Below the pieces are notes generated by a model. That model was given only the letters and a program-made list of their open reading frames with translations. It was not told where the DNA came from and made no database searches. 64,000 nt of DNA from Bacillaceae bacterium (GTDB taxonomy: Bacteria > Bacillota > Bacilli > JACDOE01): the NCBI GenBank assembly GCA_017656255.1, contig JACDOE010000007.1:1-64000 (forward strand), read 5' to 3'. The translations under genes and the position numbers were made by a program. Of this stretch, positions 6,536-62,979 are shown piece by piece; the first letter of the stretch is position 1, and the number at the start of each line of letters is the position of its first letter.

Positions 6536-6612
6536 CGGGACGTGGCGCAGCCTGGTAGCGCGCACCCTTGGGGTGGGTGAGGTCGCAGGTTCAAATCCTG
6601 TCGTTCCGACCA
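6536..6612 (+). tRNA. tRNA-Pro (anticodon TGG)
   Basis: Acceptor CGGGACG pairs with CGTTCCG (one G-U). Anticodon loop CTTGGGG gives TGG. Encoded CCA at 6610-6612. First of nine tRNA genes. Confidence 0.95.
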
Positions 6613-6613
6613 C

Positions 6614-6687
6614 AGGGGCATAGTTCAATGGTAGAACAGCGGTCTCCAAAACCGCCAATGTGGGTTCGATTCCTACTGCCCCTGCCA
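6614..6687 (+). tRNA. tRNA-Trp (anticodon CCA)
   Basis: Acceptor AGGGGCA/TGCCCCT with discriminator G. Anticodon loop CTCCAAA gives CCA. The 3' CCA is encoded. Only one base separates it from tRNA-Pro. Confidence 0.95.
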
Positions 6688-6743
6688 TTTTCCCTTACAT
6701 GACATGATGACAGATCACGTTGATCGATGTTAAACTGGTATTT

Positions 6744-6820
6744 GTCCCAGTAGCTCAGCTGGATAGAGCAACGGCCTTCTAAGCCGTGTGCCGGGAGTTC
6801 GAATCTCTCCTGGGACGCCA
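6744..6820 (+). tRNA. tRNA-Arg (anticodon TCT)
   Basis: Acceptor GTCCCAG/CTGGGAC, anticodon loop CTTCTAA giving TCT, encoded CCA at 6818-6820. Reads AGA/AGG. Confidence 0.95.
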
Positions 6821-6832
6821 TGCTCTTGAGAT

Positions 6833-6907
6833 GGGCCTATAGCTCAGAGGATAGAGCACTGGTCTCCGGAACCAGGTGCCCAGGTTCGATTCCTGGTAGG
6901 CCCGCCA
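6833..6907 (+). tRNA. tRNA-Arg (anticodon CCG)
   Basis: Acceptor GGGCCTA/TAGGCCC, anticodon loop CTCCGGA giving CCG, encoded CCA. Reads CGG, which the ACG isoacceptor at 100-176 does not cover. Confidence 0.94.
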
Positions 6908-6940
6908 TCTTCTCTATATAACATCATCATTACTGAATAT

Positions 6941-7027
6941 GCGGTCGTGGTGGAACCGGCAGACACGCTATCTTGAGGGGGTAGTGGGCGTACGCCCGTG
7001 CGAGTTCGAATCTCGCCGACCGCACCA
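6941..7027 (+). tRNA. tRNA-Leu (anticodon GAG)
   Basis: Class II tRNA with acceptor GCGGTCG/CGACCGC, anticodon loop CTTGAGG giving GAG, long variable arm and encoded CCA. Reads CUU/CUC. Confidence 0.95.
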
Positions 7028-7031
7028 TAAC

Positions 7032-7108
7032 GGACCCATAGCTCAGCTGGTTAGAGCGCCATCTTGACATGGTGGAGGTCACAGGTTCGAATCCTGTTGG
7101 GTCCACCA
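7032..7108 (+). tRNA. tRNA-Val (anticodon GAC)
   Basis: Acceptor GGACCCA/TGGGTCC, anticodon loop CTTGACA giving GAC, encoded CCA at 7106-7108. Reads GUU/GUC. Confidence 0.95.
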
Positions 7109-7120
7109 TCTTTTGGAAAT

Positions 7121-7219
7121 GAGAAGTGGGAAGTGAGAAGTGAGATAGATAATGGGATCGACAAAGTTGATTTCAAAAAGCGAATCTCACATCACACCTC
7201 ACACCTCCCACATCTATAA
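7121..7219 (+). repeat. Heptanucleotide-repeat hairpin, copy 1
   Basis: The left arm is four heptads (gagaagt, gggaagt, gagaagt, gagatag; 7121-7148). The right arm is pyrimidine-rich heptads (tctcaca, tcacacc, tcacacc, tcccaca; 7185-7212). The arms are partly complementary and are separated by a 36-base loop. It lies between tRNA-Val and tRNA-Glu. A sister copy is at 7318-7390. Confidence 0.75.
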
Positions 7220-7225
7220 CGGAGT

Positions 7226-7302
7226 GGCCCGTTGGTGAAGTGGTTTAACACACCAGCCTTTCACGCTGGCATGCAGGGGTTCGAATCCCCTACGGGTCAC
7301 CA
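7226..7302 (+). tRNA. tRNA-Glu (anticodon TTC)
   Basis: Acceptor GGCCCGT/ACGGGTC (one G-U), anticodon loop CTTTCAC giving TTC, encoded CCA at 7300-7302. Heptad-repeat hairpins lie on both sides. Its charged product is also the substrate of HemA, encoded 3.9 kb downstream. Confidence 0.94.
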
Positions 7303-7317
7303 TCTTTCTAGAAAAAT

Positions 7318-7390
7318 GAGAAATGGGAAGTGAGAAGTGGGACAGATGCAAACAGTCATTCTCACCTCACACTTCACACCTCTCACTTCT
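7318..7390 (+). repeat. Heptanucleotide-repeat hairpin, copy 2
   Basis: Left arm heptads gagaaat, gggaagt, gagaagt, gggacag (7318-7345). Right arm heptads tctcacc, tcacact, tcacacc, tctcact (7360-7387). Same design as copy 1, but with a 14-base loop of unrelated sequence. It lies between tRNA-Glu and tRNA-Asp. Confidence 0.75.
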
Positions 7391-7395
7391 AAAAC

Positions 7396-7472
7396 GGAGC
7401 TGTGGTGAAGTTGGAGTTCACGCCGGTCTGTCACACCGGAGGTCGCGGGTTCGAGTCCCGTCAGCTCCGCCA
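7396..7472 (+). tRNA. tRNA-Asp (anticodon GTC)
   Basis: Acceptor GGAGCTG/CAGCTCC, anticodon loop CTGTCAC giving GTC, encoded CCA at 7470-7472. Confidence 0.94.
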
Positions 7473-7485
7473 TTTTAAAAAAGTA

Positions 7486-7514
7486 TTGACAAATCGATAA
7501 GAAGCATGTATAAT
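7486..7514 (+). promoter_or_regulatory. Perfect-consensus promoter before tRNA-Leu(CAG)
   Basis: TTGACA, exactly 17 bases, TATAAT. It lies 16 bases before the mature 5' end of tRNA-Leu(CAG), which is therefore probably transcribed independently of the upstream tRNA genes, perhaps on into rnpB. Confidence 0.88.
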
Positions 7515-7530
7515 TAAGTCTTGTGATCGT

Positions 7531-7617
<87 letters not shown>

Positions 7618-7777: not shown

Positions 7778-8198
7778 TAAGGCATGCGGATAGCCGCTGT
7801 CCGCACCTGTGTGTGGATAGAGGAAAGTCCAGGCTCGCCCGGGCTGAGATGCCCGGAGTGTTCGTGCCTTACGCAAGTAAGGGCAATCCGGTTCCTGCAC
7901 AATTCGGCGGTAACGGGATTGACGGCGGTGAAACCTCCTGTGTCCTGACGGATATGGAGGGAATAGCCCTAAGGTGCCACAGTGACGATGCCTTCGGGAA
8001 ACCGAAGGAGTGGAACGCGGTAAACCCCTCGAGCGAGCAACCCAAATAATGGTAGGGGCACTGTCCGGAGGGAAATGAACCGAAGGACAGAGTGTATGGG
8101 TATGACCATACGCTAGATAGATGGCTATCCCTTTTGTACCAGGCTGGCTGCCGTTATGAGTACAAAAGGACAGAACCTGGCTTACAGCATGCCTTATG
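7778..8198 (+). ncRNA. rnpB: RNase P RNA, class B (Bacillus type)
   Basis: The catalytic RNA of RNase P, which trims tRNA 5' ends. Conserved blocks are visible in order: GAGGAAAGTCC near the 5' end (P4 5' strand region), GAGATGCCCG, AGTGTTCGTGCCT, GTGCCACAGTGACG, GTGGAACGCGGTAAACCCC, CTCGAGCGAG, AACCCAAAT with GGTAGGGG, then CAGAACCTGGCTTACAG (P4 3' strand). The closing P1 helix is GGCATGC (7781-7787) with GCATGCC (8188-8194). The block layout resembles B. subtilis rather than E. coli RNase P RNA. The exact ends are approximate. It sits directly after the tRNA genes whose transcripts it processes. Confidence 0.93.
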
Positions 8199-25972: not shown

Positions 25973-26320
25973 GAAATCTGATAGGAATAGGAACAACACG
26001 ATGACGGGGAAGAGTAGGCAGTGAACCCTACAGAGAGAGGTGCCTGTAAGGAGGCCGGTTTCTTCTTGCATGCTGGAAGGCGCTTCAGGATGTAGCTGTT
26101 GAAGGTAGCCCCTGAGTAGCTCCATTGAACCTTTCTCTCAGAGTGAAAGCAAGTAGATGGAGCCGTTGCCTGCGTTAAGGGCTTGAGTGAACGAAGCAGT
26201 TTTTGCGATTCGATACATTATCTGTAGCGTGGCCTGTAGCTGTGGGCTGTTTCGTTAACAAAGGTGGTACCGCGGATAATCCTTCCGTCCTTTGGGGATG
26301 GAAGGTTTTTTTATGTGATT
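25973..26320 (+). promoter_or_regulatory. T-box riboswitch controlling valS
   Basis: The T-box core AAGGTGGTACCGCGG is at 26261-26275. It is preceded by a long structured Stem I region and followed by a terminator, stem CCTTCCGTCC/GGGATGGAAGG (26281-26305) with seven T. In GAAGGTAGCC (26101-26110) the triplet GTA at 26105-26107 is the likely valine specifier codon. Uncharged tRNA-Val(UAC) pairing there and at the T-box bulge would allow read-through into valS. The 5' end is approximate. Confidence 0.92.
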
Positions 26321-26362: not shown

Positions 26363-29017
26363 ATGACTCAACAAAAAGAGCTGGATATGCCGACGAAGTA
26401 TGATCCCAAAGAAATTGAATCCAAATGGTATGAATTCTGGGTGGATAAGGGGATGTTTGAACCGAAACATCCCGGACGCGAATCATTCAGCGTCGTGATT
26501 CCACCGCCGAATGTAACCGGTGTGCTTCACCTGGGACATGCCCTCGACTTTACCCTGCAGGACATCCTGGTCCGGATGAAGCGGATGCAGGGCTATGATA
26601 CACTGTGGCTTCCGGGGACCGATCATGCCGGGATTGCGACTCAGGCCAAGGTGGAAGCCAAACTTCGGGAAGAAGGACTCAGCCGTTACGATCTGGGTCG
26701 CGAGAAATTTCTGGAGAAGGTCTGGGAATGGAAAGAGCATTATGCCGGAACCATCCGCCGGCAGTGGAGCAAAATGGGCTTTTCTCTCGATTATTCACGG
26801 GAACGGTTTACGATGGATGAAGGTCTTTCACGGGCGGTTCGCACGGTATTTGTCAAGCTGTATGAAAAAGGCCTCATTTATCGCGGCAAATACATTATCA
26901 ACTGGGATCCCGCGGCGAGAACCGCACTCTCTGATATTGAAGTGGAATATAAAGAGGTTCAGGGTGCGCTCTACCATATGAAATATCCGCTAAAAGACGG
27001 CAGCGGCCATATTTCGGTGGCGACCACCCGTCCGGAAACGATGCTCGGAGATACAGCCGTAGCCGTTCATCCGGATGATGAACGCTACAAAGACCTGATC
27101 GGAAAAACGGTTATCCTTCCGATCATCGGAAGAGAAATCCCGATTATCGCCGATGAATATGTGGATCGTGAATTTGGAAGCGGTGCTGTGAAAATTACCC
27201 CTGCCCATGACCCCAATGACTTTGAAATCGGACTCCGTCACGACTTGCCTCAGATTGTGGTGATGGATGAAGCGGCGAAGATGAATGAAAATGCCGGCAA
27301 ATATCAGGGGATGGACCGCTTTGAATGCCGCAAACAGATTGTCAAAGATCTGCAGGAAGAAGGTACCCTGTTCAAGATCGAAGAGCATGTTCATTCCGTT
27401 GGTCACAGTGAACGAAGCGGTGCAGTAGTCGAACCGTATCTGTCCACCCAGTGGTTTGTCAAAATGAAGCCGCTGGCCGAAAAAGCGATTGAATTGCAGA
27501 AAAGCGGTGAGGGCGTAAAGTTTGTCCCGGAGCGTTTTGAAAAGATCTATCTGCACTGGATCGAAAATGTGCGTGACTGGTGCATTTCCCGTCAGTTATG
27601 GTGGGGACATCGTATTCCGGCCTGGTATTGCGGTGGGTGCGGTGAGATGACCGTTGCCATGGAGGAACCTCACCGTTGTCCGAAATGTGATTCCGATCAA
27701 CTGGAACAAGATTCTGACGTACTGGATACCTGGTTCAGTTCTGGATTATGGCCATTTTCCACCATGGGCTGGCCGGAAGAAACGGAAGACTTAAAACGGT
27801 TCTATCCCACGAATGTACTGGTTACCGGGTATGATATTATTTATTTCTGGGTAGCCCGCATGATCTTCACTGCCCTTGAATTTACCAGACAAAAACCGTT
27901 TCAGGATGTGTTGATTCATGGCCTGATCCGGGACTCCGAAGGACGTAAAATGTCCAAATCCCTCGGTAACGGGGTGGATCCGCTGGATGTCATCGATAAA
28001 TACGGGGCGGATGCCATGCGGTTTATGCTGTCCACGGGAAGTACCCCCGGACAGGATCTGCGTTTTCACTGGGAAAAGGTTGAAGCAGCGCGTAACTTCG
28101 CCAACAAGATCTGGAACGCATCCCGTTTTGTGCTGATGAATCTGGAAGGATTCGAGTACAAAGATATTGATTTGAGCGGCCCGCTGGGAACCGCAGACAA
28201 ATGGATCCTGCATCGTCTGAGCGAAACGGCGGAAGAAGTCACCCGCCATCTCAACGAATACAATTTCGGAGAAGCGGGGCGTGAACTTTACGAGTTTATC
28301 TGGAATGAATTCTGTGACTGGTACATTGAGCTGTCCAAACTTTATCTGTACGGTGATGACCCGGCAGCAAAGAAAACCACCCAGTCCGTACTCTGTTATG
28401 TGCTGGACCGGACACTGCGGCTGCTCCATCCGTTTATGCCGTTCATTACGGAAGAGATCTGGCAGCATATTCCGCATCAAGGCGAAAGCATTGTCGTGGC
28501 GGAATGGCCGGAAAACAGGGGCGAGTATCACTTCCCGGATGCTGTACGTAAAATGACCCTGCTGATGGATGTCATCAAAAACGTCCGCAATATTCGGGCT
28601 GAAGTGAACGTCCCGATGAGTAAAAAAATTCAGTTGATTATTCGTCCGGATAACGAACAGATCGAGGAAGATCTGCAACAGGGCAAGGAATATCTTGAAC
28701 GGTTCTGTAATCCAGAAAAACTGGAGATCGATATGAAACTGTCCACACCGGACAAGGCGATGAGTGCGGTTGTCAGTGGAGCGGAACTGTTCCTGCCACT
28801 GGCCGGACTGATTGATATCGACCAGGAGATCAAGCGTCTGGAGAAAGAGTTGGAGACGTTAAACAGCGAAGTGGAAAGGGTTCAAAAGAAACTGGCCAAC
28901 AAAGGTTTTGTTGAAAAAGCGCCCGCTCATGTCGTGGAGCAGGAAAAAGCCAAGGAGAAAGATTATCTGGAAAAGCGGGAAAAAGTGAAGTCGCGGATTG
29001 CAGCGCTAAAAGCGTAA
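26363..29017 (+). CDS. valS: Valyl-tRNA synthetase
   Basis: 884 residues, full length. Class I synthetase. HIGH-type motif [16 protein letters not shown] (about residues 47-62). The editing (CP1) domain holds [19 protein letters not shown], and a zinc-finger insert CGGCGEMTV...HRCPKC lies at about 419-440. The KMSKS motif [14 protein letters not shown] is at about 529-542. An anticodon-binding domain and a C-terminal coiled coil (last 65 residues) follow. ATG 26363 has AAGGAGG 9 bases upstream. Controlled by the T-box leader. Confidence 0.97.
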
Positions 29018-49765: not shown

Positions 49766-49885
49766 TTGTTGGATAAGTATGCTGTTTTTTGCACTGCATA
49801 CTTCAACCGCACAGTTCGGGTATGAAAGACGGCCTGTTGGCTGCACCCGGAAATACTGGCGAGTCTAAGTACAGGAGGTGCAAAG
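49766..49885 (+). promoter_or_regulatory. Ribosomal protein L21 leader
   Basis: About 120 bases of leader with GTATGC(tgttttttgcact)GCATAC as a first stem, then a second structured part (CGGGTATGAAAGACGG ... GCACCCGGAAATACTGGCGAGTCTAAGTAC) ending at the ribosome site AGGAGGTG. This matches the known L21 leader in position and general form; autoregulation by L21 is the accepted idea. Confidence 0.75.
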
Positions 49886-60803: not shown

Positions 60804-61694
60804 ATGGAGAGACATATCGCATTTTTGGGACCGAGAGGAACCTTTACGGAAGAAGCGGCGAGGTATCTGTTTGCGGGAGAAGAAGACCGGTTTATTCCGC
60901 AGGGAAGTATCCCGGATGTCCTGGAATCCGTGGCGGAACAGCGAGTGGAATACGGGGTGGTTCCCATGGAGAATTCCATTGAAGGCTCGGTTAATCTGAC
61001 GCTGGACTGGATGATCCACCAGGTCAAGATTCCCATTCTGGCTGAGCTGGTCCTGCCGATTCATCAGTATCTGCTGACGGCGGAACGAAAGGAACCCCTC
61101 CAGCCACAGGACGTGGAAATGGTGCTGTCACATCCCCATGCCGTTGCACAGTGTCATCATTTCATGCGAACGCATATGAAAGATGTAGAAATTGAATATA
61201 CCAGCAGTACCGCTGAAGCGGCCCGTATTGTCAGCGAGAATCCCGACCGTCCCTGGGCGGCGATAGGCACGAAACTGTCCGGACAATTTTATGGCCTCAC
61301 GATTTTAAAAGAGCACATTGAGGACCATGACAACAACTACACCCGTTTTGTGATGGTGGGAGAAAAGGCGCCGGAACTGGCTGAATCCGATCATCACAAG
61401 ACCACGGTTCTGGTCACATTGCCTTCCGATTTTCCGGGGGCACTCTATCAGGTTCTGGCGGCTTTTGCCTGGCGCAAGTTGAACCTGTCACGGATTGAGT
61501 CCCGTCCCACAAAAAAAGGGCTGGGCAGCTATCATTTTATCATTGATATCGAACAGGGAATGGATGAGGTGCTGCTTCCCGGCGCGTTTGCCGAGATCGA
61601 AGCGATCGGTTGCCAGATTTCACTGCTGGGGTCGTATCCCTGTTATGTAAAAAAAGACGAAAAAGTGTCAAAGGATTTTGAAAAAACATATTGA
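60804..61694 (+). CDS. pheA: Prephenate dehydratase
   Basis: 296 residues. It forms phenylpyruvate for phenylalanine. FLGPRGTFTEEAA opening, PMENSIEGSVNLTLD (about 54-68), NNYTRFVMVG (about 175-184) and a C-terminal ACT domain with ESRPTKKGLGSYHF (phenylalanine site). Follows thrB by 58 bases, without an obvious terminator, so could be co-transcribed. Confidence 0.95.
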   Translation: MERHIAFLGPRGTFTEEAARYLFAGEEDRFIPQGSIPDVLESVAEQRVEYGVVPMENSIEGSVNLTLDWMIHQVKIPILAELVLPIHQYLLTAERKEPLQPQDVEMVLSHPHAVAQCHHFMRTHMKDVEIEYTSSTAEAARIVSENPDRPWAAIGTKLSGQFYGLTILKEHIEDHDNNYTRFVMVGEKAPELAESDHHKTTVLVTLPSDFPGALYQVLAAFAWRKLNLSRIESRPTKKGLGSYHFIIDIEQGMDEVLLPGAFAEIEAIGCQISLLGSYPCYVKKDEKVSKDFEKTY

Positions 61695-61719
61695 CTTTCT
61701 GAACGCCTGCTCGTATAAT
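61691..61719 (+). promoter_or_regulatory. Promoter of the ilvE riboswitch transcript
   Basis: TTGACT, exactly 17 bases, TATAAT. It overlaps the last codons of pheA. The transcript starts at about 61726, 25 bases before the aptamer. Confidence 0.85.
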
Positions 61720-61748
61720 GAGCATTAAAATTTAACACGATTTTGAAT

Positions 61749-61870
61749 TGTCAGAAGGGTACCTAAGGGTTCCGTTTCGAAATGTTCGAAAGTCTGGACC
61801 AAGCGGTACCAGCACTCTGTGAGAGAGTGTACACCGTGGGGATAAAAACCTCTGGCGGCAAGTTCTGACC
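61749..61870 (+). promoter_or_regulatory. ykkC-family riboswitch aptamer, probable ppGpp class
   Basis: Conserved ykkC core in order: CTAAGGGTTCCG (61763-61774), GTCTGGACC (61792-61800), then a hairpin GCACTCT...AGAGTGT, and ACACCGTGGGGATAAAAACC (61831-61850), the ykkC ACGGnGGGAUAAAA block. P1 is TGTCAGAA (61749-61756) with TTCTGACC (61863-61870). Subclass ppGpp (2a) is preferred over guanidine-I or PRPP because the downstream gene is ilvE; ppGpp-class members precede branched-chain amino acid genes. This is inference from context, not from a ligand-specific base I verified. Confidence 0.82.
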
Positions 61871-61925
61871 TCCTGGATACCAGATGAGGGTGAACTGTCG
61901 GAGAGGGGTTTTTTATTTGTTGAAC
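61844..61925 (+). terminator. Riboswitch-controlled terminator before ilvE
   Basis: AAAACCTCT...GCAAGTTC (61845-61865) can pair with GAACTGTC...GAGAGGGGTTTT (61892-61913), closing over an inner CTCCTGG/CCAGATGAGG hairpin and followed by TTTTATTTG. The left arm shares bases with the P1 3' strand, so P1 and terminator cannot coexist: ligand binding should favour read-through. Confidence 0.72.
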
Positions 61926-62013
61926 GGGTGGATGTAATTCCGGGATCAAAAAACGGAATGTGACGTTCCATATTAAAAATTGTGCAAATATTTGGATAAA
62001 ACGTGGAGGTGCG

Positions 62014-62919
62014 GTGAGCGTGGAGCGCTGGATTTATTTAAACGGGGAGTATGTCAAGAAAGAAGATGCCAAAGTATCCGTGTTTGATCACGGTCTGCTA
62101 TACGGGGACGGAATCTTTGAGGGGATTCGGGTCTATAACGGGAACGTTTTTAAAATGAAGGAGCATATCGACCGCCTGTACGATTCGGCCAAGTCGATCA
62201 TGCTGGACATTCCCCATACGCGTGAAGAGATGACGGATATTGTGGTGAAGACGGTTGAGAAGAATCAAATGCGAGATGCCTATATTCGTCTGGTTGTGAC
62301 CCGGGGAACCGGTGATCTGGGACTGGATCCGCTGAAGTGTCCCAAACCGAATGTTTTTTGTATCGTGGAACAACTGGCTCTGTTCCCGAAGGAACTCTAT
62401 GAAAAAGGGATTCGTATTGTAACTGTCCCGACCCGCCGCAATGTGCCTGATGCGCTGAATCCCAAGATTAAATCGCTTAACTATCTGAACAATGTGCTGG
62501 TTAAGATGGAAGCCAACATGGCCGGGGTAAGCGAAGCCCTGATGCTCAACCATGAAGGGTATGTCACCGAAGGTTCGGGTGATAATATTTTTATCATTAA
62601 AAATAACGTGATCACCACGCCCCCCAGCTATCTGGGAGCTCTGGAAGGGATCACCCGCGGGGCGATCATCGATATTGCCCGGGACCTGGGTTATGAGGTA
62701 AAAGAGCAGCCGTTTACCCGTCACGATGTCTACATTGCCGATGAGGTCTTTTTAACCGGTACTGCGGCTGAAGTCATCGCCGTCACGGAAGTAGACGGAC
62801 GTGTGATCGGGGAAGGTAAGAGCGGACCGATTACCAACCGCCTGCTGGAGGAATTCCGCAAGATCGTGGAAGTGGACGGCGTGAAAGTGTTTGAGGATTC
62901 TGTGCAGAAAGCCCTGTAA
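62014..62919 (+). CDS. ilvE: Branched-chain amino acid aminotransferase
   Basis: 301 residues. Class IV PLP aminotransferase for the last step of valine, leucine and isoleucine. SVFDHGLLYGDGIFEGIRVYNG (about residues 22-43), PLP lysine in NPKIKSLNYLNNVL (about 154), EGSGDNIFIIKN (about 188-199). GTG 62014 gives MSVERWIYLNGEYV; GTG 62020 is an alternative with wider spacing from GGAGG. Expressed from the riboswitch leader. Confidence 0.93.
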   Translation: MSVERWIYLNGEYVKKEDAKVSVFDHGLLYGDGIFEGIRVYNGNVFKMKEHIDRLYDSAKSIMLDIPHTREEMTDIVVKTVEKNQMRDAYIRLVVTRGTGDLGLDPLKCPKPNVFCIVEQLALFPKELYEKGIRIVTVPTRRNVPDALNPKIKSLNYLNNVLVKMEANMAGVSEALMLNHEGYVTEGSGDNIFIIKNNVITTPPSYLGALEGITRGAIIDIARDLGYEVKEQPFTRHDVYIADEVFLTGTAAEVIAVTEVDGRVIGEGKSGPITNRLLEEFRKIVEVDGVKVFEDSVQKAL

Positions 62920-62951
62920 GATTATGGTATCATATAACAGGATGAATACGG

Positions 62952-62979
62952 CGGCATGTTCTCGGAACATGCCGTTTTT
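62952..62979 (+). terminator. Intrinsic terminator after ilvE
   Basis: CGGCATGTTC (62952-62961) and GAACATGCCG (62965-62974) form a perfect 10-pair stem with a 3-base loop, then TTTTT. Confidence 0.92.

Follow-up and report, generated by a model that had tools for sequence, protein, structure and literature searches.

A predicted ppGpp-type ykkC riboswitch with a rare G at position 96 precedes ilvE in a Bacillaceae bacterium

Introduction

The ppGpp riboswitch is ykkC subtype 2a (Sherlock et al. 2018, as described in PMC7266159 and PMC10687018). RNAs of this subtype bind ppGpp, act as ON switches, and control branched-chain amino acid (BCAA), glutamate, and transport genes (PMC7266159; PMC5912903). 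In the solved structure, the guanine of ppGpp pairs with C75 (PMC6031431). Cotranscriptional probing of a Clostridiales ppGpp RNA showed that the ligand stabilizes helix P1, which then resists invasion by the terminator (PMC10687018).

Two nucleotides help to tell the ykkC types apart. Position 49 is an A in guanidine-I aptamers and a pyrimidine in ppGpp and PRPP aptamers (PMC6031431). At position 96, the PRPP aptamer carries a G that pairs with C75, and changing this G to A yields a ppGpp binder, a 40,000-fold swing (PMC6031431). The Thermoanaerobacter mathranii aptamer binds ppGpp at 91 µM with G at position 96 and at 1.8 µM with A, a 50-fold difference (PMC6031431). For ppGpp aptamers, A, C, U, or the absence of a nucleotide was reported at this position, where the alignment was called uncertain (PMC6031431). 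Subtype 2a RNAs with G at position 96 were dropped by a precautionary filter in PMC10687018.

Here we analyzed the leader of ilvE in a 64,000-nucleotide (nt) stretch of DNA from a Bacillaceae bacterium (the window), for which an earlier note, made from the letters alone, had proposed a ykkC riboswitch. With the ppGpp riboswitch, the ilvE leader has in common the scaffold, a pyrimidine at position 49, the P1 add-on helix, a BCAA gene downstream, and predicted ON-type antitermination with a terminator that invades P1; it differs by a G at position 96 in a 2-nt P4 bulge and by an extra A in the CUAGGG stretch. With the PRPP riboswitch (subtype 2b; PMC5912903, PMC6031431), it shares the scaffold, the add-on helix, the predicted ON switching, and G96, whereas PRPP riboswitches are linked to purine genes and have a CCC-A/G-G-GCGG S-turn and GAAAG/GGUUUC around P1. 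The Guanidine-I riboswitch (RF00442) has the scaffold in common with the leader but carries A at position 49, lacks the P1 add-on helix, and is linked to guanidine genes. The closest comparison comes from the same genome, in which a tandem of a 2a RNA and a T-box (L001/L180) precedes ilvB. Its P1 (GUCAGAA/UUCUGAC) and its CGGCAAG linker are identical to those of the ilvE leader, from which it differs by a single-U bulge, by the usual CUAGGG, and by its junction to the T-box.

Promoter, gene, and conserved context of ilvE

The whole element, from promoter to U-tract, spans positions 61691-61914 (plus strand, as are the features of the locus given below), and every sequence element cited in the earlier note is present. 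The sigma-70-type promoter TTGACT-17-TATAAT at 61691-61719 was confirmed with 11 of 12 matches (-35 box at 61691-61696, -10 box at 61714-61719). Its -35 box overlaps the stop codon (61692-61694) of pheA, the conserved 5' neighbor, which encodes prephenate dehydratase (60804-61694); the genes upstream of the leader are hom, thrC, thrB, and pheA. The downstream gene (62014-62919) was correctly named ilvE, since its product, a branched-chain aminotransferase, reaches 362.5 bits with TIGR01122 (cut-off, 245.6). It starts at GTG 62014 or GTG 62020 and has a Shine-Dalgarno sequence, GGAGG, at 62005-62009. Because a terminator-like hairpin follows at 62950-62978 (z -4.0, then U5), ilvE is probably transcribed alone.

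A lone ilvE had been regarded as an oddity, a view that did not hold. The order pheA-[2a RNA]-ilvE recurs at 24 loci of the class (the window locus included), the order thrB-pheA-[RNA]-ilvE was seen at locus L182, and the ilvBNC-leuAB operon is located on another contig. Thus, a lone ilvE is a normal arrangement in this class.

Other modes of control at the locus were rejected. No CodY-box was found near the ilvE promoter when up to three mismatches were allowed, although codY is present in the genome. A second regulatory hairpin between the terminator and the ilvE start codon was dismissed, as the stability of this segment was no better than that of shuffled sequences. A full-length Rel is encoded on the same contig (868 bits).

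Assignment to ykkC subtype 2a

The aptamer with its flanks lies at 61743-61877. An Rfam covariance search, which had been suggested for separating the subclasses, failed in this respect: with E values up to 1, no family other than Guanidine-I matched the ilvE leader. The match (61752-61859) had an E value of 3.1e-9 over 801 nt and a score of 56.3 bits, short of the 63-bit cut-off for the family. Scores below the cut-off are as expected for subtype 2 variants scored with a guanidine model, and all three ykkC RNAs found in the whole genome, which precede ilvE, ilvB (L001), and purE (L003), fall below it.

Since Guanidine-I was the sole match and the subtypes were inseparable in Rfam, we built our own subtype models. 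Relatives were gathered by pattern and model, and the first downstream gene was assigned by comparison with the IlvE, IlvB, PurE, and PurK proteins of this genome; at the family and order levels, the searches covered a single genome, the window's own. The relatives fell into two clear groups. The P4 tail is CCUC-(N)N-GCGG in RNAs linked to ilvE or ilvB, whose P1 ends are of the CAGGUUCUG type; purE-linked RNAs have the P4 tail CCC-A/G-G-GCGG and UAGGUUUC. Covariance models were made for subtype 2a (alignment A1, model R1; 25 RNAs) and subtype 2b (alignment A2, model R2; 17 RNAs), with the window RNA left out of both.

The window RNA scored 108.6 bits with the amino-acid-linked model R1 (E = 1e-31) and 67.9 bits with the purine-linked model R2, a gap of 40.7 bits. 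For scale, the ilvB RNA of the same genome scored 123 and 79.4 bits and its purE RNA 71 and 107.9 bits with R1 and R2, respectively; both were in the training sets and so do not test the models independently. RNAs kept out of training were sorted correctly, both those of subtype 2a (L053, L056, L072, L073, L083, and L087) and those of subtype 2b (L040, L041, L042, L050, and L081). Throughout the class survey, all ilvE- and ilvB-linked RNAs scored higher with the 2a model and all purE-linked RNAs with the 2b model, and the R1 score of the window RNA lies within the range of the other ilvE copies. In Bacillota outside the class, the ilvE-linked RNAs L218, L224, L246, L248, and L263 score better with R2 than with R1. 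As the models were trained on relatives from the class and these distant ilvE-linked RNAs favor R2, the score difference is a valid divider for relatives of this class rather than a universal one, and does not by itself prove the ligand.

In the RF00442 alignment, the equivalents of G48 and C49 lie at 61803-61804. Position 49 is thus a C (61804), the pyrimidine that marks subtype 2, and the downstream ilvE belongs to the genes expected for subtype 2a (BCAA, glutamate, or amino-acid transport). The likelihood that the ilvE leader is a Guanidine-I riboswitch, as its only Rfam match would have it, is practically negligible: the score stays below the cut-off of that family, position 49 is not A, a conserved P1 add-on helix is present, the downstream gene is an amino-acid gene, and guanidine RNAs of the class reach only 42-50 bits with R1. 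Both the two model scores and C49 uphold the earlier call of a ppGpp-type RNA; judged from its sequence, the body of the ilvE-leader RNA is that of subtype 2a.

Aptamer fold and terminator

The motifs of the ykkC core named in the earlier note were recovered as CTAAGGGTTCCG (61763-61774), GTCTGGACC (61792-61800), and ACACCGTGGGGATAAAA (61831-61847), and P1 proved to be a 7-bp helix of GUCAGAA (61750-61756) with UUCUGAC (61863-61869). This add-on helix, which is called P0 in the PRPP structure, closes the junction and covaries in 87 relatives; its 3' strand is partly reused by the terminator. The P2 5' strand, GGUACC (61758-61763), pairs with 61805-61810; P3 is the hairpin GCACUCU/AGAGUGU (61812-61830), and in P4 (61834-61858), CCGU-GGGG faces CCUC-[UG]-GCGG with a 2-nt bulge. 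Alignments place the equivalents of C75-A76-C77-C78 at 61832-61835, and the C75 equivalent, C 61832, is invariant in alignment A1.

The RNAalifold consensus of A1 consists of P1, P2 with an internal loop, P3, and P4. Among the 87 aligned relatives, 95.8% of the cells were paired (at most 45.7% when the partners were slid by one) and 24 of 36 pairs showed changes on both sides, figures that lean in favor of the structure because the alignment was fitted to it. When the transcript ending at 61877 was folded without constraints, exactly the aptamer was obtained (-47.9 kcal/mol). The leader folds 3.9 s.d. below its dinucleotide shuffles.

The intrinsic terminator (61847-61914) has a stem formed by approximately 61847-61866 with 61892-61908, followed by U6 at 61909-61914, and its region folds 3.5 s.d. 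below shuffles. An overlap of its left arm with the P1 3' strand had been predicted; this is correct, and the arm additionally takes in the P4 3' strand and the linker, with only part of the P1 3' strand. The full leader up to 61920 folds as the terminator, and P4 and P1 are dismantled; enforcing the aptamer costs 13.2 kcal/mol. Since the terminator, once transcribed, beats the aptamer by 13 kcal/mol, the modeled folds indicate that the ilvE leader should be an ON switch. The proposed antitermination layout ahead of ilvE is thereby supported by folds in which aptamer and terminator are mutually exclusive. It seems to be shared by relatives: in each of the 41 ilvE leaders, the most stable hairpin with a U-rich 3' end draws 9-14 letters from the P4 3' strand and linker and 1-7 from the P1 3' strand, with the proviso that some of these folds extend downstream and that the energies are rough. 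The layout also matches that of the Clostridiales RNA in PMC10687018.

Taken together, the ilvE leader is very probably a ppGpp-sensing ykkC 2a riboswitch acting by transcription antitermination, for which we infer the ligand and the direction of control in the cell. Class membership, the fold, the mutual exclusion of aptamer and terminator, the gene identity, the presence of rel, and the conserved context were computed here. In the proposed mechanism, RNA polymerase would start at approximately 61726 and first transcribe the aptamer with its four-way junction. In the ligand-free state, the newly made P4 3' strand, linker, and P1 3' strand would be captured by the arm at 61892-61908, and the resulting terminator would end transcription around 61914, at the U-tract. 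Once Rel, triggered by uncharged tRNA, raises the ppGpp level, ppGpp would pair with C75 (61832), stabilize P1, and block the terminator, so that ilvE would be transcribed.

Two departures from the subtype 2a consensus

Nearly all relatives have CUAGGG where the ilvE leader has CUAAGGG; the stretch UAAGGG lies at 61764-61769, and the extra A is 61765 or 61766. In the class survey, an extra letter in this stretch was found in 1 of 87 RNAs and was missing from the other 86. The extra A is not unique to the window RNA, however: elsewhere in the Bacillota, L239 also reads CUAAGGG, and a different additional letter stands at this place in L209, L210, L215, L220, L221, and L231.

The second departure is the G directly 5' of GCGG (61854), the equivalent of position 96, which is rare in subtype 2a and invariant in the 2b set. 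The window RNA thus shares the G of PRPP aptamers and departs from the published 2a tendency. In the class survey, position 96 is U in all 21 ilvB-linked RNAs and G in all 18 purine-type RNAs, and the 41 ilvE-linked RNAs have A (8), U (21), C (1), G (3), or no nucleotide (8). Besides the window RNA, the ilvE-linked RNAs with G are L116, the orthologous locus in another family with the same UG bulge, and L053, which has a single-letter bulge. L122, a relative of L116 in the same genus, has a UA bulge. In the phylum survey, G was present in L199 (UG; gene for an M20 amidohydrolase), L228 (CG; oligopeptide permease gene), L205 (AG; gene for a protein with a class-II glutamine amidotransferase domain), L229 (AG; ilvB), and L226 (sodium-dependent transporter gene). 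All G-bearing 2a RNAs precede amino-acid, peptide, or transport genes, and none precedes a purine gene.

These model-based surveys led us to reject a G unique to the window RNA. Searching the named genome collection for a CCU-stem pattern had returned no further 2a RNA with G at position 96 among its matches, which were two purine-type RNAs beside guanine aptamers and chance matches; the pattern was too narrow and missed the G-bearing RNAs. There was also no sign of an assembly error behind the two departures: when ten window proteins were checked, 8 matched NCBIfam families near full length, and no frameshift was found.

The G at 61854 raises the question of whether an RNA with a 2a body, in which G96 pairs with C75, senses PRPP (or PRPP and ppGpp) and acts on ilvE by the same antitermination. 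We consider this very unlikely, despite the G in 18 of 18 purine-type and only 3 of 41 ilvE-linked RNAs and despite the specificity swap by a single base in the T. mathranii aptamer (PMC6031431). The G lies in a 2-nt bulge (CCUC-UG-GCGG), a C95-G81 pair can form, and the PRPP-type S-turn context, CCC-A/G-G-GCGG, is absent, as are the purine-type P1 letters. The leader is followed by ilvE alone and then a terminator, not by a de novo purine gene; the G recurs in amino-acid-linked 2a RNAs; and metabolism offers no obvious reason why PRPP should control a transaminase. In family f30 (ten genomes), moreover, the ilvE bulge reads UG, UA, UU, GU, AU, AA, or U, a variety that resembles drift at a site under weak constraint when the bulge has 2 nt.

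Two departures within highly conserved stretches could alternatively reflect a decaying aptamer, in which these two changes weakened ligand binding and left the leader mostly a fixed attenuator. This is highly improbable, as the unconstrained transcript folds exactly as the aptamer, each departure is also found in other RNAs, the promoter and the terminator are intact, and the 2a score falls among those of the other ilvE copies. Because both departures recur in other amino-acid-linked 2a RNAs, our reading is that they are tolerated variation.

Membership of the ilvE-leader RNA in the ppGpp class is provisional: all features tested fit a ppGpp riboswitch but one, the lack of G at position 96, which we take to be usual in the class rather than strictly required. 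From class membership, we infer that the ligand would still be ppGpp; a small doubt remains, the main alternative to a plain ppGpp ligand being a weakened or dual specificity. Rather unlikely, though worth stating, is that the 2a RNAs in which G is the 3' nucleotide of a 2-nt P4 bulge (the window RNA, L116, L199, and their kin) form a functional subgroup. In such a subgroup, competition of the G with the ligand for C75 would either raise the ppGpp threshold or allow both ppGpp and PRPP to be sensed, and the switch would respond only when the stringent response is strong. The comparison suggests that the published rule excluding G from position 96 of ppGpp aptamers is not strict, and filters against this G may lose real amino-acid-linked 2a members. 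The natural G and bulge variants are available for testing what the P4 bulge does. The ilvE-leader RNA is a good but ordinary class member with one rare base; it adds a well-supported ppGpp-type leader from the only genome of its order in the search set.

Other regulatory RNAs in the genome, its relatives, and the window

On contig C12 of the same genome (L180:1504-2004), the 2a RNA (61.4 bits with RF00442) is followed by a T-box (101.1 bits) and precedes ilvB-ilvN-ilvC-leuA-leuB, genes named from their sequences and, for ilvB, by match. Such a tandem of ppGpp aptamer and T-box has already been described as an AND gate (PMC5912903). The third RNA, on contig C2 (L003:1492-1646), is the PRPP-type 2b RNA (107.9 bits with the 2b model) before purE-purK. 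Three ykkC RNAs thus divide the work in one genome, with 2a alone at ilvE, 2a plus T-box at ilvBNC-leuAB, and 2b at purE.

Among relatives, family f48 has ilvE-linked 2a RNAs without the P4 bulge and hence without position 96 (L156, L157, L158, L159, L162, L163, and L169), and some f48 RNAs have altered P4 pairs (CCUU-AGGG...CCCU-GUGG, CCCU...GCGG). The RNAs L171:305-441, L218, L224, and L248, the last three of which precede ilvE, favor the purine-type model and are possible intermediates between 2a and 2b.

Elsewhere in the window, a T-box leader (25992-26295; 101.8 bits) lies directly 5' of valS (26363-29017), and an L21 ribosomal protein leader (49795-49876; 48.3 bits, cut-off 36) precedes short open reading frames up to 50857. 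The window also contains tRNA clusters at 1-267 and 6536-7614 and a class B RNase P RNA at 7782-8189.
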